A stretch of 64,000 nt of DNA from Bryoerythrophyllum caledonicum (lineage: Eukaryota; Streptophyta; Bryopsida; Pottiales; Pottiaceae). The notes under the pieces were generated by a model, which saw only the letters and a program-made list of their open reading frames with translations, did no database searches and was not told where the DNA came from. This document shows, one piece after another, positions 12,935 to 40,209 of the stretch (position 1 is its first letter; each line of letters opens with the position of its first letter). The position numbers and the translations under genes are program-made. Location of the stretch: the NCBI GenBank assembly GCA_963971425.1, contig OZ020518.1, positions 1,679,263 to 1,743,262 of the forward strand, read 5' to 3'.

Positions 12935-14300
12935 GAAGAAGGACGAGGAAGTGAGGATCCACATGAATTGTCAATGCACATGCTCTTAAAAGTCCACAAT
13001 CACAAGGCCAGTTCTGAACACTGAAAAGAAGAACAGGATTGCATCGACCTTGTTGCCTTGACACTATTAAAACGAGCACAGTCATTACATGCCGCTTATC
13101 ATGCTCTGCAACCAAATCGGACACTGCCATGTAATTCAACCTCACACAACATTCCACAGTGACAATGGTTTTTCTCTAAGTCCTCAAACTTCTGCAGACT
13201 GACAGCATGAGATTTGTGGTGCCCTATTCAGACGAGGATGAAAAGGCTCCGAATTAGCTCGCACTTATGCCTAATGAGGGATATTTTTAGAGGTTGGCGG
13301 TTTGCCGGGAAGAATTGGGAGTTTGATTGTGAGTTCAAGGTAGATTTCCTTTTTATGACCATTGAGTATCAAATATATAGTATCAAACTCTTGACCTCTA
13401 TGTGGATAACTTATAAATTTGTAAAGTGGTGACGAGTACGGTTGCAAAGGGAATTGCGTTTAAAACAATGGCCCCAATGTAGTAGGACTATAAAACATTC
13501 TAATCATTGTTTACATCTACAGTAATCATCCTATTTATTATATTGGCCAGTCTTATGTAATTAAGGAATTACACTTGTTAGATACAAAATTTGGAAGGCA
13601 TGAGAAGTAGTCACAAGTCACACTTTTTCCGCTGGCCAAAATAATAGGGATTGGTCAAAATAACCTACATGCTATTACTAGCTTTGATGGTCCTTACGTA
13701 GTAAAATTTAGCTTTTATTTGTGACTTAGAGCTCCTAACCAAATTTATTGATTCTCAACCTTTCACAAATCTTGGTGGAGCGTTCATAGACTTTTGTATT
13801 TGTAGATTTTCTAGATGTCAAAGTTTGTAGAAGCTACCAAAGTTTCCAATATGTCAATTACTATGCCATATGTTGACAACCAATGAACATTGTGAAATGC
13901 TGATTATATGAGACATGGATTGTTCAAGTAACATTGTATGTGTACTCTTATCAGTTACATAGAATTTGTAACAGCAAGTATAATACAAGTAACAAGGACA
14001 AGTGTAGTACAAGTAACAAGTACAAGTATAGTACAATCCTGCAGGAAGCTGTGAGGTTGGTTTCCATGATGCTTTTAATTTCAACTCCACAACCAGTGAT
14101 TGAAGAAGTTGCAGTAGAATATCATGTCACATGCAGAGCTCAACTCAGCAATGAGTCAACGTCAGGAGCAGTGGGTGAAAGTTTTTCCAGTTCTGTGATT
14201 TGTAAAGTCACCCATAAAAATTCTTTTAGCTGTAACTGTAGCTGCAGTGTTTCATGCACCTTTCGAAGTCATCAAGTTTTCATCAGCTTGAGTTTATTGG
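12935..14300. repeat. Dispersed repeat A, copy 1
   Basis: From about 13080 onward it matches 36770-38040 in direct orientation: the words around 'atcatgctctgcaacca', 'ctgcagactgaca', 'ttgtggtgcc', 'taatgagggatattt' and the ACAAG-rich stretch near 13980-14030 recur in order. A part upstream of 13080 matches about 27090-27176. It is non-coding as far as can be seen, with scattered short frames only. Terminal repeats were not identified, so the element class is unknown. Confidence 0.6.
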
Positions 14301-14394
14301 CTCTGTCCTAGACAGAGGCTTTGTATTGAGGCCCGCAACGATTTCGCAAAAAGTCCAATGACCTATCTCCTTTTGCGTTCACACTTACCTGCAG

Positions 14395-14492
14395 GCCAGA
14401 AAACCCAGAAACAGGAAAAACCCAGAATGTGAACGCGGAATGGAAAAACCCAGAAACAGAAACCCCAGAAACAGGAAACCCCAGAAACAGAG
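14395..14492 (+). repeat. Short tandem repeat, 'cccagaaacag' type
   Basis: About five imperfect copies of an 'aaacccagaaacagg' word lie directly upstream of the calmodulin-like gene fragment. Confidence 0.7.
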
Positions 14493-14800
14493 TTGAGTAA
14501 GGTGTTGACGTCGCTCGGGGGTGAGATTTCGGACGGGGAGATGCAGGAGCTGATGAAGCAGATTGATACAGATTGATAAGGATGATGATGGGTTTATAAG
14601 TGTGGCGGAATTTATTGATTTTCATCAAACGAGCGCGGTGTCGTCGGTCAGTGCGGAGGCGTCGCTTGTGCATGATCCAATGAGAGGTAAGATTTCGGCC
14701 AACGAATTGCAATCGGTCTTGGTTAGTCTCGGGGATAAGGGGCACTCGCTTGAGGTATGTAAGCAGATGATTAGCAGCATGGATAAACGGAGTGGATGGA
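14490..14800 (+). pseudogene. Fragment of a calmodulin-like (EF-hand, CML/polcalcin type) gene
   Basis: The translation gives ELSKVLTSLGGEISDGEMQE, then an EF-hand loop DKDDDGFISVAEFIDF, then a half EF-hand GKISANELQSVLVSLGDKG leading to a last partial motif at SSMDK. These are typical of plant CML proteins. The preceding EF loops are absent, the third hand has lost its first half (VHDPMR in place of a normal loop start), and a 10-bp tandem duplication of CAGATTGATA at about 14560-14580 shifts the frame and introduces a stop. It is a broken partial copy, with no intron seen. It heads a run of host-gene fragments that continues to 19.3 kb. Confidence 0.8.
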
Positions 14801-15248
14801 GCAGAGCTGTGTCACCCAAGTGAAAACCACGGTCGTCACCCAAGTCACCGGGGGTGTGCAGGTTGACGCTCAGGGAAACGTCCAAGGCGCATATATTCAA
14901 ACCCAAGAGATATGCTCAACGCAAGTTGCAAGTAACGGAGCTGCGCAGGTTTCCCAAACAAACGGATATTATCAACAACAATCGCACACCCAGCAATGGT
15001 CGGCATATCCTTCGTCGAACCAAGCTCCGAATTTTAACCCGAACTCTGCGCCCGGTACGGTGCCCACCATGATGCAAGGTTATCCACCGCAGCAGATGAC
15101 ACCAGCGAATGGCTCGAGTTATTTCCAGCCTCAGCCAGCAGCAAACCCATCGGGAACTGTGACCATGGGCTACACATGGATTTGTGGATTTCATGGAGTT
15201 TCAAGAGTTGATGGGTGGTCAATAAACAAAACACCCGAGGATGCGTGA
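14796..15248 (+). CDS. Gln/Ser-rich ORF of unknown origin, probably a gene fragment
   Basis: An open frame of 150 codons starts inside the end of the EF-hand fragment. The protein is rich in Q, S, T, N and P (for example NGYYQQQSHTQQWSAYPSS) and looks intrinsically disordered. It resembles the low-complexity tails of plant RNA-binding or C2-type proteins, but no family could be named. It has the composition of a real coding sequence, unlike the surrounding AT-rich DNA, yet lacks a plausible start or end of its own. The last 25 residues differ in character and may be out of the original frame. Most likely it is a captured or broken piece. Confidence 0.4.
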   Translation: MEQSCVTQVKTTVVTQVTGGVQVDAQGNVQGAYIQTQEICSTQVASNGAAQVSQTNGYYQQQSHTQQWSAYPSSNQAPNFNPNSAPGTVPTMMQGYPPQQMTPANGSSYFQPQPAANPSGTVTMGYTWICGFHGVSRVDGWSINKTPEDA

Positions 15249-15504
15249 AATCACCGCATTGGATAGTCGAAGGATTGTGGTTGAAAACCGTTGGATTCGG
15301 GACAGCAGAGATTCGGTTTATCGGGAGGTGAGAAAACTAGGGCAGGCGATGGAGTTACCAGAAGAAGAGCACGATGATTTCAACGGTAACACCTAACCCT
15401 AGAGAGGGAGATCCATTTTTTTCGCAGATCCCATTTTTTCGGTCATCCCACTTTGGCGTTTGATAGAAGTATAAACATGCCTCCATCCCTCATTGTGCCT
15501 CATT

Positions 15505-15977
15505 GTCTACTTCAGGTGCCTCATTTACTGGTCTGATGGGTCATGGTACCGTGCTGCGGTGCCCAACGGTGCTTCCAGTGGTGAGATACTCTTTTGTTTT
15601 TTGAGGGCTTGTGTTTTTTTCCTTTCGATTTGTCATGTGGTTCGGTTATTGGATTTTTGGAGGATTGATCAAGGGTTGATGGTTGTGTTGACGATTAGCT
15701 GTGGTTGTGTTTTGTGAAGGTGTGTACGAGGCATTGGAGTTGAGGGATGGAGGCAAGCAGAAGGTATCGATGTAACTTATTTTGTGTAATTCGAGATTAG
15801 AAATGTAGAGAGTTTTGTCTTTTGTGTTGATGTTGCATTCGGGACGGGACTGAATGGTTGCTACAGGATGTGAAATTCTGATTTTGGTTTCTTTTTATGC
15901 AGTTGGGAGCTAACGCTATCTTGGCAGGTTCACTCGCTGTCTGCAAGGCTGGGGTTTCCAAGCTCCCACTTTACCAG
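15505..15977 (+). pseudogene. Enolase gene fragment, three exons with introns, internally deleted
   Basis: Three exon-like pieces with GT-AG borders read as enolase. The first, ending at about 15581, is WSDGSWYRAAVPNGASSG. The second, 15720-15763, is VYEALELRDGGKQK. The third, 15903-15977, is LGANAILAGSLAVCKAG plus VSKLPLYQ. Known enolases have about 50 residues between the RDGG and CKQK-LGANAIL motifs; here DGG is joined directly to KQK, exactly at the normal exon end, so a whole segment is missing. Catalytic and C-terminal barrel parts are absent. Retained introns show a DNA-level copy, not a retrocopy. A weak upstream piece near 15245-15390 (ITALDSRR...) may be a decayed first exon, but this is not certain. 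Confidence 0.82.
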
Positions 15978-16439
15978 GTTAGTTCGTGGTCATTGCTGGA
16001 GCACTTTTTGTTGCTCATGTGAATCTCTCATATATGTTAACGGTTAACCTTGGGGGTCTTTACATTGTAAAACTTTCTTGCTGAACAATGTTTTCTCTTA
16101 ACAACGACGTATCCTGGAGCTTAGTCGAGGAGTTTGGTGATGAAAAGACATCGGTGATCATTTTAGGTGATTTTTCACGTCTTGGTTTGAATCGTGTATG
16201 GCTTGATTACTGCAGACTTTGCTCTCATTTTGTAAATGGTTATTCCTTTGGCAAACATAAATTTTTAGAATTTGCTAGCTATCAGTCTGTTTTTTGTCAA
16301 GTGATGTTTGAAGATGCGTCAAGGGTTTATAGTCTTGTTGCTTTCAAGTACTTCTAGTTCGGTATGTAACTTGTTTTTCCTTTTTTCACAGATAAGAGTG
16401 GACTTTGGTTGTGACGTGGATTGTGAGGTAAAATGGTGA

Positions 16440-16676
16440 CGCCGGCTTCAACATCTCTTGTCTCCAACGGTGATGCACGACCAACTTGAACATGATGAGT
16501 GTGCATTTGCAAACATGCAGCATTTCTCTCGTGCAGGTGATTTTCTGTTGTGTAATACAGTAGAAAAATGTTCTGATGAGATTTTATTCTTGGCAGATGG
16601 TGAGACGCTTTACGTTGCCGAGCAGTTTCTGGATAGAGAGTTCGACCCAACTGTTACATGCGGAGGTTGGTACATC
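16440..16676 (+). pseudogene. Unidentified two-exon gene fragment
   Basis: Two stretches of protein-like sequence flank a short GT-AG intron (about 16537-16596). They are EHDECAFANMQHFSRA and DGETLYVAEQFLDREFDPTV, followed by another possible donor (GTTGGT). The joined reading is open and of coding-like composition. The family was not recognised. It lies between the enolase fragment and the RPA-like gene and may be one more displaced exon pair. Confidence 0.35.
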
Positions 16677-16679
16677 TAG

Positions 16680-17597
16680 ACTAGTCATTTCTGGACTTTT
16701 CGCATGTGGTACAGAAAGTCCTTGGTCGTAACAAACTTCAGGCTGTGATGAGAATATTTCATTAACGTAATATCCAATATTTTTTCTCGTATGTCTATGA
16801 TTATACAAATGTGAATAGTATGGCTGGAAGTTGCAGCTACATGTTAGATATACAAACCTGATGTGAACTTCTGTTTCGGTTTCTAAATTGTAATGTACCT
16901 TTCATTTGTGTGCAGCATATTCTTAACGGCATTGGAAGATATAGTGGCTGGTCTTAAGAAGATTTAATATTACAGATGAATATTACAGATTATAAGTTAA
17001 CTTTCTAGATTTTTGCTTCCAATCAGAAGCGGTTATGGGATGTTTTGTTCAAGCTGCTGTAGCGAGCTCCTTCTCATGACTTCGAGTTTTGAACTTTTTA
17101 AAACTATTTCTTGACACTGAATTTTTTTTGCACTTTTAACCGTGCAGGTTTAATGATGCTGGTCATTGTGCACGAAGTTGTACCTTCTGGTTTCATTGCG
17201 TACTCAGTTCTAGGCACTATTGAAATTAAATTCGACTAAGCTCAGTAACTTGTGATAATTGAGTATTATTAAACTGATGTCTGGTTGGCGTAATTAGTTT
17301 AGTTGCAGGTCTGGTCAGAGTTGTGGAAAATCCAGTCAAAGCATAGAGAAGTGGATCTTCGAACTGATAACTTTGTCAGACCATAGTTAATGCCATTGCA
17401 GCGGATTGACGGCGGTTTGCGGCAACATTAATTCGGCACCTATATGAAGAGTGGCCCCAGGATTGATTCTTACCCACATTTCAGTTTGACAGTGTGTGTA
17501 GCTTGTGCAGTTTGAGACAGTGTAGCATTTGTTAGAGAGAGTGTAGTGTTTGCAATTTGAGTCTGTTCCATTGTGTGTGAGTAGAGGTCGTGAGGAA
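16680..17597. other. Flank between gene fragments and RPA-like gene
   Basis: No clear gene. Part of the 3' portion (about 17440-17597) presumably holds the promoter and leader of the RPA-like gene; no TATA box was assigned. Confidence 0.35.
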
Positions 17598-18949
17598 ATG
17601 GCTGAGAGGAGGAGAATGGTTGTGTCCGTTGATGAGATCATGGAGGGTTTGAGAGATGTAGCCTTTGAAGGGAAGGTGTTGAATCGTTATGGTAACTACG
17701 ATTCTACCAAGGTGATTGAGTTTAAATACCTTCATTGTGATCTAGTAGACAGCCAGGGTTTTACAACCGTCACATTAAGTGTGAAAGAGGAACAGGTTAG
17801 AGCACACGAGTCCAAGCTTCGTGTAGGACAAATTATTAGAGTCGAGAATTTTGGAGTGGCAAAGAAAAGTGCAAAGTCGCATGAGAAAGGGGATCTGATG
17901 TTTGTTCTGAAAGTTATGTCTTCTACTGTTGTGAGCTTGGTAGAACCGATCCGTGTTGGTTTTGTTCCCGAATTTTATCATACTGACACTGTTTCAGAAT
18001 TCAGGGCCCGTTCCCATGAGGTGTGGGCAAGTGCAACTATTGCAGTGTGTGTGATAGAGGTGAGGGGGTCTTTTGCTCGGAAGTATGGAAATTTATACCA
18101 AGTGGTAGTTGCAGATGGTATCAAAGAAAGAGACTATGATGTCTTAGCTTTCTCTGACCAATTTAAACTAGAATATGAACAAGTTGTAGAGGCATTCAAC
18201 AATGGATTATGTGTTATGGTGCTTTTCAAGAACATTTCAACAACCCTTTCTGGAGATAAATATCTCATTACAAGAAATCACACCATCATCACCCCTGTCG
18301 TGGATGAAAGCACCAGAATGGAGTTGCAAAGGGTGTTTGAAAAGATTGGGAAGAAAACAATGACGGCATGTAAATCGGTAAGTTTTGCAGTCTTTTAACT
18401 TTTTTCATTTACCATAGTAAAATGCCATTTTTTCACATCTAACTATCCCTTTTGTTTTTTACAGGTGGAAGGAATACTCTCCATTGAAAGACCTTCGGTT
18501 GCTCCCTTTAAGCATCATTGCATCAAATGTCAGTATACTAATTTGATGGTAATAGAAGGAGGTTTTTACTGTAATTACTGTCGTTGTATGCAAGAGGTCG
18601 TGAAAAAAGCACACCTTGTGCGAAAATAGTAAATGGTGATGGAGAATACTCCATCACCATTGAGGGTCAGTGGTTGGTAGCATTAGTAAGGATGAGTGAG
18701 GAGCAATTTCTTGCTCTCTCACGTGGTAATCAAATTAAGCTTTTGTCAAGCTTAAAAGTGAAAGGTATCTACTCTTTGACACCTATGGCTGTCCTGTGTG
18801 GCTATGAAGAAAATATGGAGGTTAGTACTAGTGTTATAGATACGAATTTTTCACAAGGTAGTAAGGGTACTTTTAGAACACCTCCTAAAAGGAAGCTGGA
18901 CGATATGGGAGTCTCCACAGGGTCAGAATCTGTAACCAAGGCGAAGTGA
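17598..18949 (+). CDS. Replication protein A large-subunit-like ssDNA-binding protein (one intron, frameshifted)
   Basis: Exon 1 (17598-18377) encodes MAERRRMVVSVDEIMEG and OB-fold-like strands (LRVGQIIRVENFGVAKK). A GT-AG intron (18378-18464) follows. Exon 2 carries a zinc-ribbon pattern CIKC...CNYC, as in the C-terminal RPA1 OB-fold. Immediately after it the original frame stops at 18627-18629, while the next frame continues with GDGEYSITIEGQWLVALVRM and ends in PPKRKLDD, a nuclear-localisation-like motif. One indel, plausibly in the A-run near 18602-18607, would explain this; a sequencing error or undetected intron is also possible. Known: RPA-like genes are often carried by plant and animal Helitrons. 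Its place 1.1 kb upstream of a Helentron in the same direction suggests it belongs to that element, but a host origin is not excluded. The start was chosen at the first ATG before the conserved region. Confidence 0.7.
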
Positions 18950-19020
18950 GTTCATTGATGTCTTGTATATTTATATCTAATTTCCATATAATTAAATTTT
19001 GTATCTTTGTGCATTTTTGC

Positions 19021-19345
19021 TTGCCATGGCCGCCCTCCCCATAGCTACCAGGAGGATGCTCAACGTCGCTCTTCTGTGTTCCACTGCTTTTGTTTCATAT
19101 GCTGTTACTCCTCAGCCAGATGTATGTTAGCATGGCAACGCTTTCTATTGGATCTGGCCTAGCTTGTTCTAGTGATATCACAAATTAGTTCAGTTTCTAG
19201 GCTGGGTTTTGTAAACGAAAACAGGTGGCCTCTATTTTTTCAACATTGCAGCCCATTCGAAGTCCTTGGTGTTCATGGGTAGTGCTTCGGCAGTGCTTCG
19301 GAGGGCAGTGCATGTCGTTCCTCACATCAGCAGATTAGTTAGTTT
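19021..19345 (+). pseudogene. Short two-exon gene fragment, unidentified
   Basis: ATG at about 19026 opens MAALPIATRRMLNVALLCST, then AFVSYAVTPQPD to a donor GTATGT. A second piece after an acceptor TTGCAG (about 19250) reads AHSKSLVFMGSASAVLRR, then AVHVVPHIS. The N-terminus looks like an organelle-targeting or signal sequence. The joined reading is coding-like but very short, with no family recognised. It may be a captured exon pair beside the Helentron. Confidence 0.3.
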
Positions 19346-19486
19346 ACACAACCTAAATCTTCTGGTGTGTTCTTGGGAGAAGTTTAGTGTGAGAAGATTA
19401 AGAGCAATAGTATATTGTATTTCTCTTTATAAAAGTAAAGTGTTATTGTTTTCCTCCAAAGGGGTATCTATCCTCCAAACTTTCAA

Positions 19487-19850
19487 ATTACTCAAATTAC
19501 TCAAACTACTTAAATTACTCAAATTACTCAAACTACTCAAATTACTCAAATTACTCAAATTACTCAAAAACATGATTTCAAAAGCATGAACTCAAAAACA
19601 TGAACTCAAAAGCATGAACTCAAAAACATGAACTCAAAAACATGATCTCAAAAGCATGAACTCAAAAACATGAACTCAAAAGCATGAACTCAAAAACTCA
19701 AATTACTCAAACTACTTAAATTACTCAAATTACTCAAACTACTCAAATTACTCAAATTACTCAAATTACTCAAATTACTCAAAAACATGATATCAAAAGC
19801 ATGAACTCAAAAGCATGATCTCAAAAGCATAAACTCAAAAACCTTTTCTC
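19487..19850 (+). repeat. Compound tandem array upstream of the Helentron ORFs
   Basis: Two interleaved units, a 9-mer CTCAAATTA (variants CTCAAACTA, CTTAAATTA) and a 14-mer CTCAAAAGCATGAA (variants with AACATGA), form a block that is itself repeated (about 19487-19696 and 19697-19850). The (KLL)n frame across it is an artefact. Known: Helentrons and their non-autonomous relatives (HINEs, DINE-1) often carry short tandem arrays near one end, which fits the position just before the OTU reading frame. Confidence 0.85.
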
Positions 19851-20041
19851 ACCTTTATTATTTCACTTTGTAGCATTCATTTTTATCAACTTGTTTTACA
19901 ATATAGAATTTCCTACCATTATTATTTTCATTATTTCAAAATTTATTTGTAAATTAAAAAATTAGACTTTGTAGATACTTTTTATCAAACATTTATCACT
20001 ATAGATTTGTTTCAATTAATATATATATATAAATTGATATA

Positions 20042-21685
20042 ATGGCTCTTATAGATGAGAAATTAAAAGAGTGTAATTTACGTCGAGTTACTACTTATAA
20101 ATTCATTGTTGGTGATTGTTTATTCGACTCTATTTCATATCTCTTGGACTATGAGATTTCATCTATTATCTTAAGAAAAAATTCTATGAATCATCTTGCC
20201 CAATGCTTAGTTTTAAATACACCAAAAGCACTACAAACACGAAATCAAGAACTAAATCCTCAATGGTTGCATGATTTACATGAAGGTGTATATAATGAGC
20301 ATGACTATATAAGAAAAATGGCTCTTAGTGCAAGTAATGGTGGACTTTGGGGGGACTTTACAGCCATCAAATGGATCTCCGACTATTTACAAAAACCCAT
20401 TTATGTTTGGCTTAATAGTAGTGCAAAAATCATTAGTATATCTAGACAAGAATTAGAATTGGAACCATTACATTTAGCATTTGGAAACTCTCATTACGAA
20501 CCTATTGAAAAAATACACCAATCAATGCCGGTAATTTTATCCAATGATAATAGTTGTAATACTAATAATACAAACAAATGTCATAATGATGTGATTGATT
20601 TAGATTCAAGTTCTTCACATGAAATTGAGGTTCTAAGTTCACAAGAGACATTGATTCAGGATGAATCAAATCAAACATATCTCTCTAGTTGGCAATCAAA
20701 TTTCAATGAACAATGTTTAAATTCAAGTACTTCAACTAAAACATTTGACCATGATATTTTTAACTCCAAAGACTTATTAACAAAAAATAGAAATGATGTT
20801 GTGTTCAACAATGAAATGTACATGGGCTCATTTCCTAGTGTAGCTAATGAAACAATTATAAAATCCAAACTGAAATTAGACATGGATCAAAATTTGGTAG
20901 GAAATATAAACAAAAAAACTAAACAAATGTTTAGGACTGTAGATTTAGATGACCTTTTAAGAACTTTAATGTCAAAGTATTCAACGACTTCCGAAATTGC
21001 TACAAATTTTTTGTTTCAGAAAAACGAACTTGATTTAACAATGAATCAAGTAATGCGTCACATTAGAAACTTGAAATCTGGAAATTTAAAACCTAAGACC
21101 CCCATATTGAAAAAATCACAAGTAATAGATTCTCACATCACTCCAATTGATGTTACTTTACATTCAACCCAATGTTATACATCACCAAAAAAACGATCAT
21201 ATACTAGATGGAAAGAGATGGATGTTGAATTAGAAAAAATTATAAACAATGATGTCAATAACACTTATGTTGATAAAGCAAATTCATTTGTTATCAAAAA
21301 TCCAACCCTCAATAAAACTGCAGTACAAATAGTTAAGCGAATGAAACTTCTATCATCCAAAGCAAAAGCCAATTCCACTTTAATTCAAAAGTTACAAAAA
21401 AGAAAAAATGACCCTTTTGTTAAATTTCATGATAAATTTAATGATACCCCAACCTTTGTATGTGAATTGTGTGAAAGATATAATTTTCTTTCATCATCTA
21501 CTTTGATAAATGAAAAGCTTCTATACCAAATAAACAATTTTCTTCATCGAAGTCTTGTATTAAAACAAGATGAAAATTTATATGTATGCAATATTTGTTT
21601 AAATTGTGTTAAAAATGAGAAGATTCCAGTTTTTTGTGTTCCAAATAACATTTCAAGAAATTCTATCATTACAAGTGTGAAATAA
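20042..21685 (+). CDS. Helentron N-terminal ORF: OTU cysteine protease plus zinc fingers
   Basis: 547 codons from an ATG preceded by an AT-rich TATATATATATA stretch at 20021-20032. OTU domain at residues 20-155: catalytic Cys26 in GDCLFDS, a GDFTAIKWISDYLQKPIYVW stretch at 105-124, and catalytic His151 in GNSHYEPI. A linker of about 250 residues follows, rich in Asn, Ser and Thr. Near residues 470-535 two cysteine pairs, FVCELCERY and YVCNICLNC, plus FCVP form zinc-finger-like motifs. The frame ends at TAA (21683-21685) right after SIITSVK. The next codons in the same frame continue the conserved Helitron region, so this ORF is the first part of what is normally one polyprotein. Known: OTU domains occur in Helentrons and may process the polyprotein or remove ubiquitin; which of these holds here is not known. 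Confidence 0.9.
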   Translation: MALIDEKLKECNLRRVTTYKFIVGDCLFDSISYLLDYEISSIILRKNSMNHLAQCLVLNTPKALQTRNQELNPQWLHDLHEGVYNEHDYIRKMALSASNGGLWGDFTAIKWISDYLQKPIYVWLNSSAKIISISRQELELEPLHLAFGNSHYEPIEKIHQSMPVILSNDNSCNTNNTNKCHNDVIDLDSSSSHEIEVLSSQETLIQDESNQTYLSSWQSNFNEQCLNSSTSTKTFDHDIFNSKDLLTKNRNDVVFNNEMYMGSFPSVANETIIKSKLKLDMDQNLVGNINKKTKQMFRTVDLDDLLRTLMSKYSTTSEIATNFLFQKNELDLTMNQVMRHIRNLKSGNLKPKTPILKKSQVIDSHITPIDVTLHSTQCYTSPKKRSYTRWKEMDVELEKIINNDVNNTYVDKANSFVIKNPTLNKTAVQIVKRMKLLSSKAKANSTLIQKLQKRKNDPFVKFHDKFNDTPTFVCELCERYNFLSSSTLINEKLLYQINNFLHRSLVLKQDENLYVCNICLNCVKNEKIPVFCVPNNISRNSIITSVK

Positions 21686-24600
21686 TTGACATCACTAGAA
21701 GAAAGATTAATATCACCACGCTTAGCATTTGCACAAATACATAGATTGTACAATTATGGTCAATACAAATTACATGGAAGTATTGTAAATGTGCCTGTAA
21801 ATATTGATTTAACACAATCCATTCTTCCACGTTTACCTGAAGATGGAACAACAATTGGGGTGTTATTAAAACGCCGATTAGAATATAAGTCCCCATATAT
21901 GGCAGGAAACATACGACCAAATAAGACAATGTTAGCATTGAAGGATTTAATAAAAACACCCCTTTATGAAGAATGTAATGTTAGAATTCGTCCACAGTGG
22001 TATAGTTTATTTTCTTTACACCTAAAAGCAAGTATGAATTTAGATATTCAATGTGATACTATAAATGAAAATGACTTTGAAGAAGAAATTGATAATCCAC
22101 CAAGTGAAACTTTAGTACATAATTTCTTAGAATCTAATAAAATTCATGATTTTGATAAGATGTTATCTGTTGCTCCCGGTCAAGAATATTCTCCTATAGG
22201 AATTTTTAAAGACAAGTTTAGTGAAGAATTGAATCATCCAACATTATTTTATGGACATCCTAGAAATGAAAACATTAATGAAAACTTTTCTTATCATCAA
22301 ATAGCAAGTTGGGAGATTTTGCACAAGGATCATGATTTTGCTACAAACATCGAAAATATTTTCTTCAAAGCAATTAAAATCTGTTTACAAAAAGTAAGGA
22401 ATTCTAGTTGGATTCGAATTCGAAAAGGTAAGCTTTCAGGAAGAAGATTAACCGCCGGGCAAGTTGTTGATGAACCCAATCTTGATAAACTTTTACAATC
22501 TCATATAGGGTTTCGAGATTTAGAGAAATTACGCACATCACCAGATTATGTTGAAGGATTAAGGAAAAATTTGTTTGCTATGATTAGACAATTGGGACCT
22601 CCAACTTTTTTTATTACTTTGACAAGTGGAGAACGATTGTGGACACCATTAATTGAAGCTTTGTATAAGCTAAACTCTAAACGACTCAATTTACCACATT
22701 TTGATTTATTGGAATCTAGTCATATTGCTGAGTTAATAAGGTCTGATCCGGTGACTTGCGCTTTATACTATAATCATCGTACAAAAGCTTTTCGAGATTT
22801 GCTCAAAAAAGAATCATCTATTTTAGGAGAAGTTTTGGATTTTTTTTTTATAACCGAATTTCAACATCGTGGAAGTGAACATGAGCATGCTGTAATTTGG
22901 GTAAAAAATGCACCTCAATTTAGAACTAATTCCAACAAAGAAATTGAAAGTTTTGTTGATAAGTACGTATCCAGTGATAAGAGTTTGTTACCTGCAGCTT
23001 TACAAGAAGCCCAAACCCATAAACATTCACGAACATGCAAAAAGAAAGGACAATCTATATGTAGATTTCATTACCCACTTCCTCCAATGAATCGTACAAT
23101 GGTATTGGAACCTCTCGCTGAGACAAACAACTCTATACTATCATTCTTAAAAAAGAAGGCTAAAGAAATTTTTACATATTTGCAAAATGTAGAGGTAGGA
23201 ACTGAGGTTGAATTTGATGAATTTCTATCAAAATTTGAAATTGATGAACAAACTTACATATTGGTGTTATGTAGCCAACTTAAAAGACCACAAGTGTTTC
23301 TAAAGCGCTCATTAAGTAATATATGTACCAATGCTTTTAACAAAATTATAGCTCATAATTGGTATGCAAATACAGATGTTCAATTTATATTAGATCCATA
23401 TGCTGCTGCCACTTATTGTACATCCTATATGACAAAAGTTGATAAAACTATTACTGTAGAGTTAAAATCAATTTTACAAAAATGTATTGCAGAAAAAACA
23501 GATGCTAATTTAAGAATTTTGAAACTAGGAAATGCCTTTTTAAATGCCCAACAAATGTCAGCTCAGTTAGCAATATATCTTATTTTATCAATATCATTAT
23601 ATCATTGCTCTCGTTCATTTAGTTTTATAAATACATCACCATCACAAGAGCGTGCATTTATTTTAAAACCTCAAAACCAATTACTTAAATTAGATAAAGA
23701 TTGCACAGAAGTTATGTGCAAATCTATTATAGATAAATACATTGATAGACCAAGTAATTTAGAAAACATATGTTTGGCTGCCTTTGTAGCAGACTATAAC
23801 TATTATAAAAATAAAATCTCGATCCGAAAAAAGTCTAAAATAATAAGATTTGTTCATTACAATAAAATAAAAGATATAGAAAATTGGTGTCGTGAACAAT
23901 TATTACTATATGTTCCTTTCAATGTATCTGAAGAGTCTCAAAAGATTGGAAAGGAAACATGGAAAGAAGCATATGACGAACAAGTAGAAATGGTTTCATG
24001 TAATCGAAAAAAATTTAACTACCAAATACAAAAAAATGCATTAGAAGATTGTGGTGATGAATGGATAGATCTTCAAGATTTTGCAAATGAATTGGTTTTA
24101 TGTCAAGATTTTGATATTTGGAAAGATGCATCTATTGAAGAAACGGAATCGATTATAATGAGCATGAATACTGAAAAATATGACTTAGCTAGTGATATTT
24201 ATATAAAACCAAAGTCTACAAATACGTACAAAAATACATCAGTAGATAACAATAATGTTTTGGAACTTATGAAAAATGACGAATATTTTGGAATACTAAG
24301 ATCTCTTAATGAAGAGCAAAGATCAATTTATGATGATATAATGTATAGGAAAAGAACTTTTCCAAATGAGTCATTATATTTGTTTCTTACTGGAGGTGCA
24401 GGATCAGGAAAAACATACACACTTCATGCCATAATTCAAGGATTGTTACGTATTTATCATAAAGACCTACATTCCAATCCGTTAAAAGCAAAAGCCTTAC
24501 TTATGGCTTACACAGGAAAAGCAGCTTTTAATATCAATGGAACTACTATTCACTCAGCTTTATATATTCCTATCAATCAATCACTTGAAAATCTTAATAA

Positions 24601-26446
24601 TTTATCTTCAGAAATGCTGAATAAATTAACAGATCAATATGAAGAATTGCGATTTATTGTACTTGATGAAGTATCACTTGTAGGTGCTAGAATGTTACAT
24701 GCTATTGATCAACGACTTCGTTCAATTATGCATGTACAAAATAAAGTTTTTGGAGGTTTAGATGTTATAGTCACTGGTGATTTTTATCAAGCTCCTCCAG
24801 TAAGAGATAAATGGGTTTTTCAACAACTTGACTTTGGTCTTAATGCTATAGCTCCAAATTTTTGGCATCAATATATGAAATGCTACGAGCTACAAACCAT
24901 TGTGCGTCAAAATGATCCCATATTTATAAATATATTAAATAGATTCCGAAAGGCAACTCATACAGTAGAAGATGTGGAATTCATAAATAATTTATGTTTG
25001 AAAAAACCTCCAGAAAGTTCAATAATTCCTTATTTATATTACACTAATACGGAAACATCTGCTCATAACAATAGAGAGTTTATGAAATCTACGGAACCTA
25101 CATTTAATTTTGAAGCAATTGATATTCGACATCATTCACTACCATCAACATTTAAAATTCCAGACAATCCAAATAAAACTGCCGGACTTCAAACTACAAT
25201 CAAAGTTAAAAAAAATATGTTGGTGGAACTCACCCACAATTATGCCACCTCAGATGGACTTGTTCATGGAGCAGATGGATTATTCAAAACAGCCACATCA
25301 ATTAACAATAAAACATATGTATGGATAAAAAATTTCAATGAAAAAATTGGTAAAACTGCAAGGTTCGCAAATGCTCAATTATATGAAGATCAAAATGTAG
25401 ATTCTACTTGGACTCCTATAGAGTTAGTTTCAAAAGAAATAAATCTTAGCAAGAATAACAAGTATCTTTTAACACGTATACAATTTCCTATTCAATTAGC
25501 CGCAGCACGAACAATTCATCGCTCACAAGGTTTATCATTGGATGATGTAGCTTTTAATCCAAGTAATATTAATAAACACGGATTAACTTATACAGCATTA
25601 TCTCGTGTGTGTACCAAAGAAAAATTATATTTACTTGCTCCATTAACTATTTCCAATTTTCGTGTAGATGCATGTGTTACTGATGAAATGAACAGATTAA
25701 ATTCAATTGCAAAATGGGAATTTCTTGTACCAAGATTACAAACAATGCGTCATTCACATATAATTATCCAGAGTATCAATATAAATTCATTACAAAAACA
25801 TCACATTGATTATAAAAGTGATCATAATATGCAAGCAGCTCATATTTTATGTTTTCAAGAAACCAGAGTAGAACATGCAAATGAAATCATAAATTACATT
25901 GATACTTCTCGATATAAATATATACATGCTTATGATAAACACGGAATATTATTAATGTACGAAAATCGTATGGGATCTTGCAACATCGAAACATACAATG
26001 GTAGTGAATTTATTGCTGCTTCATTTAATTTGGGAACTCGAAATGCTATACATGTTATTACTATATATAGATCCCATTCAACCAAATTAGAAAAAATTCT
26101 AGAAATTCTACAACTACTGATATGTAAAGCACCAAACGAATGTCCAATTATTATTCTAGGAGATTTCAATGTTGATATTTTAGAAAATACAACCCAAAAA
26201 TATGATGCTAATGAGATTTTAAATTATATGCATAACCATTGTTTACATCAAAAAATATTAACAAGTACTACAAAGAATAATTCTTTGATAGATCATATTT
26301 GGACAAACATCCCTCGAGTAGATGCTAAGTATGGAGTTACAGATGCATATTGGCCGGATTATCATAAACCTATATATTGTGCTTTTAAACTACCAACTAC
26401 ATTACCAAAGTTTTTAAAAAATTCAACCTCATTTCGTTTTATTTAA
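21686..26446 (+). CDS. Helentron Rep-helicase-endonuclease ORF
   Basis: In frame with the preceding ORF after one TAA; 1587 codons with no internal stop. Residues 1-100 hold the conserved LEERLISPRLAFAQIHRL region. Rep: FQHRGSEHEHAVIWV (HUH-type His-Glu-His near residue 400) and YCTSYMTK with two tyrosines near 577-581. Helicase: Walker A GGAGSGKT near 903, Walker B VLDEVS near 995, GDFYQAPPV, then HRSQGLSLDD and YTALSRV near the end of the domain. Endonuclease (from about 1360): SININS, CFQETR, IILGDFNVD, SLIDHIWTN and DYHKPIY, matching the EEP/APE-like fold. All key residues appear present. Known role: nicking, strand transfer and rolling-circle replication of the element in the nucleus. 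There is no ATG in the first 70 codons, so separate initiation would lose the conserved start; readthrough or a recent nonsense change are the options. Confidence 0.93.
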   Translation: MTSLEERLISPRLAFAQIHRLYNYGQYKLHGSIVNVPVNIDLTQSILPRLPEDGTTIGVLLKRRLEYKSPYMAGNIRPNKTMLALKDLIKTPLYEECNVRIRPQWYSLFSLHLKASMNLDIQCDTINENDFEEEIDNPPSETLVHNFLESNKIHDFDKMLSVAPGQEYSPIGIFKDKFSEELNHPTLFYGHPRNENINENFSYHQIASWEILHKDHDFATNIENIFFKAIKICLQKVRNSSWIRIRKGKLSGRRLTAGQVVDEPNLDKLLQSHIGFRDLEKLRTSPDYVEGLRKNLFAMIRQLGPPTFFITLTSGERLWTPLIEALYKLNSKRLNLPHFDLLESSHIAELIRSDPVTCALYYNHRTKAFRDLLKKESSILGEVLDFFFITEFQHRGSEHEHAVIWVKNAPQFRTNSNKEIESFVDKYVSSDKSLLPAALQEAQTHKHSRTCKKKGQSICRFHYPLPPMNRTMVLEPLAETNNSILSFLKKKAKEIFTYLQNVEVGTEVEFDEFLSKFEIDEQTYILVLCSQLKRPQVFLKRSLSNICTNAFNKIIAHNWYANTDVQFILDPYAAATYCTSYMTKVDKTITVELKSILQKCIAEKTDANLRILKLGNAFLNAQQMSAQLAIYLILSISLYHCSRSFSFINTSPSQERAFILKPQNQLLKLDKDCTEVMCKSIIDKYIDRPSNLENICLAAFVADYNYYKNKISIRKKSKIIRFVHYNKIKDIENWCREQLLLYVPFNVSEESQKIGKETWKEAYDEQVEMVSCNRKKFNYQIQKNALEDCGDEWIDLQDFANELVLCQDFDIWKDASIEETESIIMSMNTEKYDLASDIYIKPKSTNTYKNTSVDNNNVLELMKNDEYFGILRSLNEEQRSIYDDIMYRKRTFPNESLYLFLTGGAGSGKTYTLHAIIQGLLRIYHKDLHSNPLKAKALLMAYTGKAAFNINGTTIHSALYIPINQSLENLNNLSSEMLNKLTDQYEELRFIVLDEVSLVGARMLHAIDQRLRSIMHVQNKVFGGLDVIVTGDFYQAPPVRDKWVFQQLDFGLNAIAPNFWHQYMKCYELQTIVRQNDPIFINILNRFRKATHTVEDVEFINNLCLKKPPESSIIPYLYYTNTETSAHNNREFMKSTEPTFNFEAIDIRHHSLPSTFKIPDNPNKTAGLQTTIKVKKNMLVELTHNYATSDGLVHGADGLFKTATSINNKTYVWIKNFNEKIGKTARFANAQLYEDQNVDSTWTPIELVSKEINLSKNNKYLLTRIQFPIQLAAARTIHRSQGLSLDDVAFNPSNINKHGLTYTALSRVCTKEKLYLLAPLTISNFRVDACVTDEMNRLNSIAKWEFLVPRLQTMRHSHIIIQSININSLQKHHIDYKSDHNMQAAHILCFQETRVEHANEIINYIDTSRYKYIHAYDKHGILLMYENRMGSCNIETYNGSEFIAASFNLGTRNAIHVITIYRSHSTKLEKILEILQLLICKAPNECPIIILGDFNVDILENTTQKYDANEILNYMHNHCLHQKILTSTTKNNSLIDHIWTNIPRVDAKYGVTDAYWPDYHKPIYCAFKLPTTLPKFLKNSTSFRFI

Positions 26447-27176
26447 ACAAAAATACTTCAAGGAAAATAAAATAAGAAATGATCCATAATTTCTTCAATG
26501 ATGGATATTTTGATTGGAAACAATCATAAATAATCTAAATATGGATTTTGTAATACGTACACTATATAAATATTAAAATAAAATTAAAATATGAAATGCT
26601 TATATCTAATCATGTTCAATCATATTTTAAACTATAGATTTGACTTTGAACATTAAATACCAGTTTACATACAAGATTAGAATTAAACATTAGGCATTGA
26701 ACATTATACATAGAATAGATATCATGTTGTACATAATTACATACAACTTACATAAATTTTATTGCAATTATATTCAATGCAATTATTGAAAAGAAAAAAA
26801 TATTTGAAAACAAATTTATAAAAAATGCCCCAAATACTAAATTCACCATGTTGTATTAAATAGGTTAATATATGATCTTGAAACTACAAATCGAGTGTAA
26901 AGACAGAGCCCTTACGGTCCTACCGTTTTCTTGTTTATGCATAAACTAAGTAGCAACAGTTTACTAATGCATGTTTGTTGACTACTGAAATATTGGCGGG
27001 TCTCCAATAATAAAGACCTTGTTGAAGGTCTCATTGAGGGGATGACCATTGCATAGCCTCAAAATTTCAGGTTGAGGCTGAGTTGGGGATGCTCTTAGGA
27101 GTCTTAAAAGTCCATGGTCACAAGGACCATCCTAAACATCGAAAAGAAGCATACGACTGCGTTGACCTTCTTGCCT
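26447..27176 (+). other. Helentron 3' flank with hairpins, and a piece of repeat A
   Basis: About 450 bp of AT-rich non-coding sequence follow the ORF. Hairpins: ACGGT-CCT-ACCGT (26914-26926), followed by TTTTC; TATTGG-CGGGTCT-CCAATA (about 26991-27009); and a perfect AGACCTT-GTTG-AAGGTCT (27014-27031). Any of these could be the element's terminal structure. From about 27090 a fragment similar to 12985-13060 (repeat A) runs up to the TTAA at 27177. Confidence 0.5.
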
Positions 27177-38110: not shown

Positions 38111-38618
38111 CAAAGTCATCAATAATTGAATCTGCTCGCTGACTAAATTATCCATGGGACATGCCAGTTCTGAAATAGCCACATGAAAGTACCGCAGCTG
38201 AATTTGCTACAAGACACGCATAAGACATGCATAAGAGACGTATTAGAGAAAGCCAAGAGATGTACAGGAGATGCATAAGATATGCAAAGGATACGCACAA
38301 GAGATAGACAGGAGGTGCACGAGCTTTGAAATGACCACATCCAGGCTGGGGTGGAGAAACATAAGATATGAAATGAGCACATCCAGGCTCCGGTTGAGAA
38401 TCAGGTCGCCACATTTGTTCGGCATCCGGAGGCGACAACATGCAGTTTATGTTTTGTAATCTACTTTCTTAATCGTACAGCCAACGGGACGGTCTACTTT
38501 TGTGACTTTCATGTCCCCATTTCCGTTGGTACTACAGGAAAATGCTAGTCTGTCAAAGCACCTCATCTAAGTATATACTTAATAGAAAGGCTTGGTACTT
38601 CAGCCATCGGCTCGAGCA
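38111..38618 (+). other. Upstream region of the proline-rich protein gene
   Basis: A stretch at 38210-38310 has imperfect repeats of 'gagatgcataagacatgcat' type. The pair 'aacataagatatgaaatgagcaca/gctttgaaatgaccaca' lies near 38310-38375. The remainder is ordinary sequence that likely holds promoter elements. Confidence 0.4.
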
Positions 38619-38626
38619 CTATAAAG
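38619..38626 (+). promoter_or_regulatory. TATA box of the proline-rich protein gene
   Basis: CTATAAAG lies 60 bp before the ATG at 38686, with a pyrimidine-rich leader (CTCTCTCTCTC) in between, a common plant arrangement. Transcription would start about 30 bp downstream, giving a very short 5'UTR. Confidence 0.7.
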
Positions 38627-38685
38627 ACCACACCCCATTCTACAATCTTCCCACCTCTCTCTCTCTCATTCACTCATCTCTGGCA

Positions 38686-39471
38686 ATGGCTCCCTTGCGG
38701 ATGAGCCTGGCTGTTGTGCTGGCCCTGTTGGTGGTTCTTGTTGGGGCTCCAGCGGATGCTAGGGGGCGTGACTTGATGGAATATTCTCCTCCGAAGTACG
38801 AGAAGCCTCCTCCCAAGTACGAGAAGCCCCCTCCGAAGTACGAGAAGCCCCCTCCGAAGTTCGAGAAGCCCCCTCCGAAGTACGAGGAGCCCCCTCCGAA
38901 GCACGAGAAGCCCCCTCCGAAGTACGAGAAGCCCCCTCCGAAGCACGAGAAGCCCCCTCCGAAGTTCGAGAAGCCCCCTCCGAAGTTCGAGAAGCCCCCT
39001 CCGAAGTTCGAGAAGCCCCCTCCGAAGTTCGAGAAGCCCCCTCCGAAGTTTGAGAAGCCCCCTCCGAAGCACGAGGAGCCCCCTCCGAAGCACGAGAAGC
39101 CCCCTCCGAAGCACGAGAAGCCCCCTCCGAAGCACGAGAAGCCCCCTCCGAAGCACGAGAAGCCCCCTCCGAAGCACGAGAAGCCCCCTCCGAAGTACGA
39201 GAAGTCTCCGCCTCCACCCAAATACGAGAAGCATCCGCCTCCTCCCAAGTATGAGAAGTCTCCCCCTCCGCCCAAGTACGAGAAGCATCCGCCTCCACCC
39301 AAGTACGAGAAGTCTCCACCTCCACCCAAGTACGAGAAGCATCCGCCTCCTCCGAAGTACGAGAAGTCTCCACCTCCACCCAAGTACGAGAAGCATCCGC
39401 CTCCTCCCAAGTATGAGAAGTCTCCCCCTCCGCCCAAGTACGAGAAGCATCCGCCTCCACCCAAGTATTAG
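38686..39471 (+). CDS. Secreted repetitive proline-rich / extensin-like cell-wall protein
   Basis: 261 codons, single exon. The ATG at 38686 is preferred over an in-frame one 48 codons upstream because it begins a clear signal peptide (MAPLRMSLAVVLALLVVLVG, cut probable near residue 25 after ADA) and sits just past the TATA box. The mature protein is nearly all repeats: about 20 heptads PPPK(Y/F/H)E(K/E), then ten nonapeptides alternating SPPPPKYEK and HPPPPKYEK, ending in PPPPKY. SPPPP is the extensin glycosylation motif; tyrosines may cross-link in the wall, and lysines give a strong positive charge that alternates with Glu. DNA repeats are almost identical (21 bp and 27 bp), which shows recent expansion or homogenisation. 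Long open frames on both strands here are a by-product of the repeat. A remnant of the 3' end lies inverted at 51.1-51.2 kb. Confidence 0.9.
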   Translation: MAPLRMSLAVVLALLVVLVGAPADARGRDLMEYSPPKYEKPPPKYEKPPPKYEKPPPKFEKPPPKYEEPPPKHEKPPPKYEKPPPKHEKPPPKFEKPPPKFEKPPPKFEKPPPKFEKPPPKFEKPPPKHEEPPPKHEKPPPKHEKPPPKHEKPPPKHEKPPPKHEKPPPKYEKSPPPPKYEKHPPPPKYEKSPPPPKYEKHPPPPKYEKSPPPPKYEKHPPPPKYEKSPPPPKYEKHPPPPKYEKSPPPPKYEKHPPPPKY

Positions 39472-40209
39472 CTGCGCAACATTCAGCCTGGACTTCAACT
39501 TGCTTCAAGCCACGAACTTGTGGTGAGCTACGGTTAACATCTCATCATTTTCTGTCGTTTTTGGACTGATCGAAATTGTGCCAATAGCTCAAGAAATTTC
39601 GTGAAGTCATTCATATCTCCTCATTGATGACCCTACTTCATAGAGTTATCCCTACATTAGCAGCTTCTCCCACCTTTGACATGAGTTTCTACCAACAATG
39701 ACAGTTCCTCCTAGTTCTAGTACCTCCTCTGTAAACAGCGTTATGTAGTGTATTTTGAACCCATGTTGAACCTCAAACTCAAAGCAATGAATATGATCTC
39801 CATAATGTGCTCTGGATATCTGATTGCTGACAGTTGGTTTGTGAATTCCAGGTAGCTGAGACGCTTGAAGGAGTTGAAAGGTGGAGAAATCGACGGAAGA
39901 GTTAGAGGCTTGGAGACAGATTATTCGTTGTAATGAAACAGTCCGTTGGAGTCTTGTACACAGAATATGTGTTGTGTTTGTGACCGTCACATTATGGCAT
40001 TTGGCGCCAAGTGCAGCTTGAGATAAGTCAATTTTGCGAGTGGTGGTGTTTAGGCTGATAATATGTTAGTTGCATCGACAGTATGGATTCAGCGCCAGTA
40101 GCAGTAGCCTGATGGATGAATCAGGCGGAATACTATGAGTCGTAACTTGACTCCTTGCTGTAGAGGCTCATAAGTACTAAATAAAACTGCTCAGGAACTC
40201 TGGGCCTAG
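39472..40209 (+). repeat. Arm A of a large inverted duplication, spacer part
   Basis: This non-coding sequence downstream of the proline-rich gene matches the reverse complement of 49640-50296 and 51094-51175. TTAA at 39534-39537 is the empty insertion site of the element found in arm B. The words around 'tccgttggagtcttgtacac' and 'agtcgtaacttgactccttg' recur in arm B. Divergence is moderate with many small indels. Confidence 0.8.

Follow-up and report, generated by a model that had tools for sequence, protein, structure and literature searches.

A Helentron at home, and until recently very probably mobile, in the genome of the plant Bryoerythrophyllum caledonicum

Do Helentrons, the endonuclease-bearing rolling-circle transposons on the Helitron2 side, known chiefly from animals and fungi, live in plant genomes? 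A survey published in 2014 found them missing from most plants and did not rule out contamination for the few plant hits (Thomas et al. 2014, PMC4067079). The question is raised anew by a 64,000-nucleotide stretch of Bryoerythrophyllum caledonicum DNA (assembly GCA_963971425.1, contig OZ020518.1; C6:1679263-1743262 in the contig numbering used below), referred to as the window, in which an earlier note had described an almost intact Helentron from the letters of positions 20042 to 26446. We followed this element through the host assembly of 437 Mb in 894 contigs. Its modules, ends, target site and 13 copies show most traits of a Helentron, and we consider it very probable that the element is a Helentron, at home in its host plant and mobile there until recently.

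The coding start at 20042 turned out not to be the start of the element. Comparison of the 13 copies found genome-wide, the window copy being one of them, places the borders at 14299 and 26933, which gives a complete element of 12,635 bp with the coding region as its 3' half; the lengths of the other 12 range from 9,624 to 18,102 bp (Table 1). All 13 have GGCTCTGTCCTAGACAGAGGC at the 5' end (10 exactly, three with one or two changes), and a genome-wide search with the 5' end pattern, allowing up to three mismatches, returned 13 places, the same 13 loci, 10 of them exact. At the 3' end every copy carries CCTACCGTTTTCTTG followed by TT, beyond which the sequences diverge; a search of the genome with this end found 12 places and missed the C4 copy. 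The count of near-identical genomic copies, proposed as a check in the earlier note, thus comes to 13, all with common ends. A 5' start near window position 19452, suggested by the C4 copy (L043), was dropped once the common 5' end had been found at 14299. Two further loci, C4:21790803-21790898 (80%) and C10:21509233-21509322 (74%), resemble the first ~90 bases of the element (window 14294-14386) and may represent termini of relatives that are older or non-autonomous.

The coding region, with an AT content of 70.2% (about 70% in the earlier note), holds the modules expected of a Helentron. Judged against the cut-off of each Pfam family, matches were obtained for the OTU protease (PF02338, 32.2 bits, cut-off 23.3), the Rep region (Helitron_like_N, 75.5 bits, cut-off 28.9), the PIF1 helicase (101.5 bits, cut-off 25.9) and the C-terminal endonuclease (Exo_endo_phos_2, PF14529, 32.8 bits, cut-off 27.4; Exo_endo_phos, PF03372, 31.3 bits, cut-off 24.5), and a DUF6570 match in the second open reading frame (ORF2) is likewise above its cut-off. 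Cys26 and His151 of the OTU domain are in place, as had been claimed, and both residues are retained by a sequence from a second lineage of the same genome (lineage B, the window element representing lineage A) that is 46% identical over that part; a PDB sequence search with the OTU part found no OTU, and its AlphaFold model (predicted local distance difference test, pLDDT, 36) was too poor to use. The HUH motif TEFQHRGSEHEH and the tyrosine motif YCTSY are present, Rep motif 2 reads RGSEHEH, and CxxC pairs visible by eye are candidates for the zinc fingers mentioned earlier. Both tyrosines are kept in six of the seven relatives that fully cover the site (L025, L026, L032, L033, L034 and L036); in L037 the site is aligned across a gap. 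Walker A of the helicase is likewise present. The endonuclease region yielded a model of low confidence (mean pLDDT 48.5) whose best match, a LINE-1 (long interspersed nuclear element 1) endonuclease (Foldseek E 4.6e-4, template modelling score 0.36), supports the assignment weakly, and a PDB sequence search with this part gave no meaningful match; a stretch homologous to it is found in lineage B and in a relic on C7. The single 6.4-kb frame described before does not exist in the window copy, in which codon 548 is a stop that leaves 547 and 1586 amino acids, although a frame of 2139 codons is open in two other copies (C1:5.7 Mb and C1:6.1 Mb). The C3:20.7 Mb copy has one stop within this frame.

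Both ends of the element carry terminal structures, with the 5' arm of an asymmetric inverted repeat lying within a palindrome and the 3' arm, GACAGAGCC, preceding a short hairpin; the C1:45.8 Mb copy has one change near the 3' arm. The hairpin folds at -3.7 kcal/mol, with a z-score of -3.4 in the 30-nt end, yet of -0.7, not above shuffled sequences, when 50 nt are folded. The target sequence TTTRTT (Table 1) is found in the host DNA of the window at 0.14% of the positions on each strand, and the chance of meeting it at 12 or more of the 13 sites is 4.9e-34, for a motif chosen after the sites had been seen. We joined the flanks of all 13 insertions and searched the genome for empty sites, scoring the best 40 of 7,627 candidates; junction-spanning matches were obtained for at least four insertions, and the five empty sites read for these four contain TTTRTT. 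For the C1:5.7 insertion, with two such sites, and for those at C1:6.1 and C4, the empty site reads flank-TTRTT-flank; hence, TTRTT belongs to the host, and insertion adds exactly TT to the element. The C3:20.7 insertion lies in a T run, and its empty site, a dispersed repeat, has a run of another length, so that the number of T added there is uncertain. A ~30-nt repeat flanking the C1:6.1 Mb insertion was rejected as a target duplication and is a host repeat, because the empty site (L076) already has both copies. As a separate observation, several near-identical empty sites for two insertions cluster within ~160 kb at C1:6.02-6.18 Mb, and on C878; the C1 region thus appears to have been duplicated, in tandem or segmentally, with two Helentron copies in or near different units.

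The copies moved recently, and they moved within this plant. Over ORF2, the eight copies with one unbroken match differ at synonymous sites by a divergence (dS) of 0-0.0125 (98.8-99.9% DNA identity), i.e., 0-1.25%, so that movement is recent. Between the C1:5.7 and C1:6.1 copies there are four differences, none of them synonymous, and the two are separate insertions because their flanks differ. A 5.3-kb stretch of the C1:6.1 copy is also present, at a rounded identity of 100%, in the C1:5.7 copy and, split into two pieces, in the C3:20.7 copy. Of this stretch, 3,054 bp align at 98.2% with C4:18379620-18382669, a locus distinct from the 13 element loci, and 313 bp align at 95.2% with DNA lying farther upstream there. 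This locus reads as a host AAA+ gene, which we take to be ClpB-like; the captured piece matches PF07724 (140 bits), and since the gene has several separate open stretches, the matched DNA seems to include introns. Other parts of the stretch resemble C2:15.20 Mb (92-96%, four pieces) and C12:1.90 Mb (95.5%), and parts of the C2-type piece are also present in the C1:45.8 and C4:31.2 copies. Among six pieces scanned with Pfam, two matched, both AAA-type and from the C4 gene; the other four, including both other captured genes and the RPA-like piece of lineage B, matched no family. We provisionally call these two captured genes "fatty acyl reductase-like" and "UDP-glucose epimerase-like". Because the captured stretch matches a host gene and is the same in three copies, the element took up plant genomic DNA and then moved again. 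Further candidate captures may be older: an EF-hand gene fragment, the first part of which (to ~14622) is common to all 13 copies, resembles other loci of the genome at 69-71%, a short piece (15176-15221) does so at 88-89%, and candidate older captures follow it. No other observation speaks as strongly as the captured host DNA against contamination and in favour of activity in the host lineage. Of the earlier suggestion that the lineage is, or recently was, active, the second half is thus borne out by the 13 copies, their low dS, the captured DNA and the empty sites of four insertions.

Whether any copy can still move is a different matter. A family that moved recently and has no mobile copy left is a real possibility, to which we give somewhat less weight than to its opposite: the 2139-codon frame is broken in 11 of the 13 copies, including that in the window, and the ratio of nonsynonymous to synonymous divergence (dN/dS) between copies is 0.4-1.1, as expected once copies have inserted, whereas two copies retain the open frame with no synonymous difference between them.

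A recent horizontal transfer from an animal, fungus or oomycete, followed by a burst, is an improbable history. It would fit the young copies (eight of the 13 compared) and the scarcity of known plant Helentrons in 2014 (PMC4067079), but not the older relatives of the element in the same genome. A search of the genome with ORF2 (tblastn, 34 matches, the best 30 of 250 candidates scored) also revealed copies at 42-78% identity. Four lineage A relatives at 65-78% (L025, L030, L034 and L035; four of 11 rows compared over ORF2) show proportions of synonymous differences (pS) of 0.66-0.69, close to saturation, and of nonsynonymous differences (pN) of 0.14-0.19, so that changes in the protein are much rarer than synonymous ones; a lineage B copy (L026) has pS 0.69 and pN 0.37, and in the remaining six rows, which contain as many as 39 stops, pS lies at 0.63-0.70 and pN at 0.24-0.38. 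Lineage B is ~45% identical to lineage A and occupies at least about ten loci, mostly 77-91% identical to the copy at C1:34.211-34.219 Mb (39 of 204 candidates scored). In that copy, the frame of which is broken in Rep, an RPA-like ORF, OTU, Rep, helicase and endonuclease follow one another in the same order as in lineage A. Furthermore, both lineages differ from animal Helentrons in the residues that precede the HUH motif (motif 2 reads GGEHEH in one lineage A relic), and the part of the EF-hand fragment shared by all 13 copies resembles other loci of this genome. Given the second lineage and the older relics, long residence fits better than one recent transfer, and the horizontal transfer suggested in the earlier note is unsupported as it was put; a transfer in deeper time is conceivable. 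No outside Helentron relative was confirmed in viral contigs or in GTDB, and among the matches listed for plasmids (25 records) and phages (412 records) there were only helicase-region ones, at 26-31%.

Contamination of the assembly by animal, fungal or oomycete DNA, the doubt left by Thomas et al. (2014, PMC4067079) and one that a second, different rbcL on contig C821 of this assembly might revive, is so improbable that it can be set aside. The copies lie inside contigs of 20-65 Mb (C1, C2, C3, C4, C6, C8 and C15), each with at least one match to the WRKY family, of which there are 49 in the assembly, 44 on large contigs, and none in any of 14 control genomes; C821 carries no copy of the element, and paralogous empty sites lie in the same chromosomes. 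With copies on seven large contigs and ~5 kb of captured host DNA common to three of them, matching C4 at 98.2%, contamination is excluded for these copies; the contaminant scaffold that the earlier note had weighed as a counter-explanation was not found.

The classification as a Helentron rests on a set of shared traits: an HUH Rep with two tyrosines joined to a PIF1 helicase, a LINE-type endonuclease fused to its C-terminus, an OTU cysteine protease (frequent, though not universal, in the group), a T-rich site with TT in all 13 copies, asymmetric inverted repeats with an inverted repeat at the 5' end and a stem-loop near the 3' end. The signature S between G and P before the HxH of motif 2 is present in the window copy, with E in place of P (RGSEHEH). 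A narrow Helitron2, with the same kind of ends and no endonuclease, does not describe an element in which the endonuclease is present. Several observations weigh against our interpretation. The Helentron signature F/Y-x-R just before motif 2 is absent from the window copy (FFI-TEFQ) and S from lineage B (GGYPHDH); both sites tell the groups apart in most cases and are no defining trait (PMC4067079). The helicase tree speaks for the classification in that it unites lineages A and B (100/100) and sets them off from two of the genome's own Helitron1 proteins (100/100), but its 10 rows include no outside Helentron, and it came with a warning of long branches. The C4 copy lacks ~10 nt at the 3' repeat arm, part of the repeat included, and one side of its 3' hairpin is shortened. 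With the whole frame open in only two of the 13 copies, present activity is no more than possible. Genome-wide, there are no 5' ends within three mismatches beyond the 13 copies, and no non-autonomous family was seen. Between the lineages ORF1 is less constrained than ORF2 (pS 0.55-0.74, pN 0.38-0.41; three rows). Finally, the RPA-like gene scores 23.0 bits against DUF223, below the cut-off of 24.6, and the corresponding piece of lineage B has no Pfam family.

The genome also holds abundant Helitron1-type elements, with 152 PF14214 matches listed, Helentrons included (150 of 492 candidates scored), scores of up to 225.7 bits and open frames of up to 1350 amino acids without a stop in the match; judged by their sequences, two rolling-circle systems coexist in the host plant. 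That the element is itself a plant Helitron1 that separately gained OTU and endonuclease is hardly conceivable: the abundance of Helitron1 and the RPA-like gene typical of plant Helitrons (PMC4683698) would suit it, but the ends are not TC...CTRR, the insertion site is not A^T, motif 2 is RGSEHEH rather than RGLPHxH (RGLPHAH in the two Helitron1 proteins read), and the helicase tree separates the element from them, so that the placement inside plant Helitron1, named in the earlier note as a refutation, was not observed against two of the genome's own Helitron1 proteins over the helicase region.

Table 1. Features of the Helentron and its surroundings (positions in the window)
Feature	Position	Strand	Basis or remark
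Complete element	14299..26933	+	runs GGCTCTGTC to CTTG; both borders common to 13/13 copies, sequence differs outside
Host target TTTATT, left of element	14293..14298	+	TTTRT in 13/13, TTTRTT in 12/13 copies
5' arm, asymmetric inverted repeat, GGCTCTGTC	14299..14307	+	reverse complement of window 26902-26910
5' palindrome CTCTGTC-CTA-GACAGAG	14301..14317	+	folding energy -7.8 kcal/mol, z -2.4
Fragment of an EF-hand (calmodulin-like) gene, taken to be captured from the host	14433..14820	+	PF13202 30.4 bits, PF13405 28.1 bits, above cut-offs
Candidate older captures	15705..17019	+	resemble C7:23.22 Mb at 79-91%, C4:24.72 Mb at 72-75%
RPA-like gene with an OB-fold part (weak DUF223 match) and a zinc-ribbon-like part (CxxC...CxxC)	17550..18949	+	upstream of OTU gene
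Tandem minisatellite, ACTCAAATT- and AACTCAAAAACATG-like units	19487..19850	+	alignment of 13 copies: length and unit number vary
ORF1, 547 amino acids (aa), OTU match aa 24-132	20042..21685	+	ends at in-frame stop 21683-21685
ORF2, 1586 aa: DUF6570-like start, Rep, PIF1 helicase, endonuclease	21686..26446	+	ORF list and Pfam, same frame as ORF1
HUH Rep region, Helitron_like_N, aa 216-404	22331..22897	+	HUH residues aa 399-401
Y-x3-Y catalytic tyrosines, YCTSY, aa 577-581	23414..23428	+	motif alignment with relatives
PIF1 helicase core, aa 874-1077	24305..24916	+	Pfam profile
APE-like endonuclease, aa 1384-1556	25835..26353	+	Pfam profiles
3' arm, asymmetric inverted repeat, GACAGAGCC	26902..26910	+	23 nt before element end; intact in 12/13 copies
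3' hairpin ACGGT-CCT-ACCGT	26914..26926	+	5-bp stem, ends 7 nt before element end
TT right of element (2-bp duplication or element-borne)	26934..26935	+	TT in 13/13 copies

In Helitron biochemistry, Rep nicks the DNA, a helicase peels off a strand, a circle forms and transfer stops at a hairpin. On this basis, and starting from the domains, ends, target register, copy number, recency and in-genome capture followed by further movement read from the DNA, we infer an order of enzymatic steps, roles for the endonuclease, OTU and RPA-like protein, and a circle. Rep, with its HUH motif and two tyrosines, would nick and hold the 5' end beside TT; the PIF1 helicase would peel off one strand, which the RPA-like protein would coat, and the 3' hairpin would mark the stop. 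Probably by way of a circle, the single strand would then be inserted at another TTTRTT; the LINE-type endonuclease may make the target nick there or help in making it, a role proposed as a hypothesis by Thomas et al. (PMC4067079). The similar target of FoHeli1/2 of Fusarium oxysporum, described without an endonuclease (PMC5148889), speaks against the endonuclease alone setting the target; because such endonuclease-less fungal Helitron2 elements use TNAT, the target might be set by Rep and the second strand cut by the endonuclease. Read-through or repair during replication might occasionally take up host genomic DNA, and OTU may process a polyprotein or act on ubiquitin. A bolder conjecture, which we hold doubtful as a whole, is that the TT gain is a true 2-bp target-site duplication, made by an HUH Rep and a LINE-type endonuclease cutting strict TTTRTT with a 2-nt stagger, and that land plants, at least outside flowering plants, have their own ancient Helentron clade. 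If true, the duplication would be an exception among rolling-circle transposons, which as a rule produce none. The A or G within the T run is a register without counterpart in the poly-T targets of animal Helentrons, which makes target choice and TT gain directly testable.

Upstream of the OTU gene, the RPA-like gene shows the CxxC...CxxC pattern by eye in lineages A and B. Its other two pieces matched no Pfam family, a PDB sequence search with the RPA-like part found no match, a genome comparison listed none beyond element copies for 17550-18949, and a DUF223 profile search of the genome was empty and uninformative, the controls giving no match either. Elsewhere in the window, 38542-39526 holds long overlapping open frames on both strands; the frame 38542-39468 (+) had no Pfam match. 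In the assembly, the rbcL of C821, which differs from that of C590, lies beside trnR-CCG and an accD-like ORF; C590 (L064) joins rbcL to sequence without a plastid look; and C894 carries rbcL and a chlL-like gene, the neighbour of which we take to be chlN. Because chlL is not known from flowering-plant plastids, the host is probably a land plant outside the flowering plants. The assembly may include plastid DNA of a second plant and a nuclear plastid insertion. On C590, the sequence from CTCCCTTCATCCCATAATGATCG to near GGGACAGAGGAAGTA (reverse complement of L064, ~2760-3250) resembles a Stowaway-type miniature inverted-repeat transposable element.

A literature search, mostly of titles and selected passages and with subscription papers outside its reach, found no described plant Helentron. 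The HELIANO paper (2024), reportedly a broad survey of elements of this sort, may include Helentron-type ones from plants. The kind of element is already known; what sets this one apart is a plant-resident lineage with an altered motif 2, a strict TTTRTT target and no non-autonomous family seen.

Plant Helitron1, that of the same genome included, shares the HUH Rep, the PIF1 helicase and gene capture with the window element; the Helitron1 of this genome differs in its RGLPHAH motif (in two proteins read) and separate helicase clade, and plant Helitron1 in general is not known to carry endonuclease or OTU and has A^T insertion and TC...CTRR ends (in part PMC4067079). FoHeli1/2, of Helitron2 type, are alike in their asymmetric inverted repeats, hairpins near the ends and T-rich target (TNAT, then T or A, resembling TTRT|T of the plant element), and unlike in the fungal host and, as described, in having neither endonuclease nor RPA-like gene (PMC5148889). 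Helentron proteins with OTU are mentioned in the same paper, and OTU in one frame with Rep, helicase and endonuclease is no clear difference.

The closest counterparts are the Helentrons of mite, Culex, Drosophila, fish and Nematostella, which share the Rep-PIF1 protein with a C-terminal LINE-type endonuclease, OTU, the RPA-like gene (a candidate in the plant element), subterminal inverted repeats with a nested 5' inverted repeat, the 3' stem-loop, the T-rich site, internal tandem repeats and gene-fragment capture (PMC4067079). The minisatellite with copy-variable unit number likewise recalls described animal Helentron derivatives; in contrast, animal families have many non-autonomous derivatives, none of which was seen here by the 5' end search with up to three mismatches. 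The plant family further differs in its host, its length of 9.6-18.1 kb, its motif 2 without a preceding R, its strict TTTRTT target as opposed to an unregistered T run with a varying number of T, its shorter repeats (9 bp versus 12-15 bp published) and its repeat-to-3'-end distance (23 nt versus 38-60 in mite; PMC4067079). For the Helentrons of one plant, the doubt about contamination is laid to rest by the captured host gene together with the empty sites, and the Helentron adds to plants a second rolling-circle system that takes up genes.

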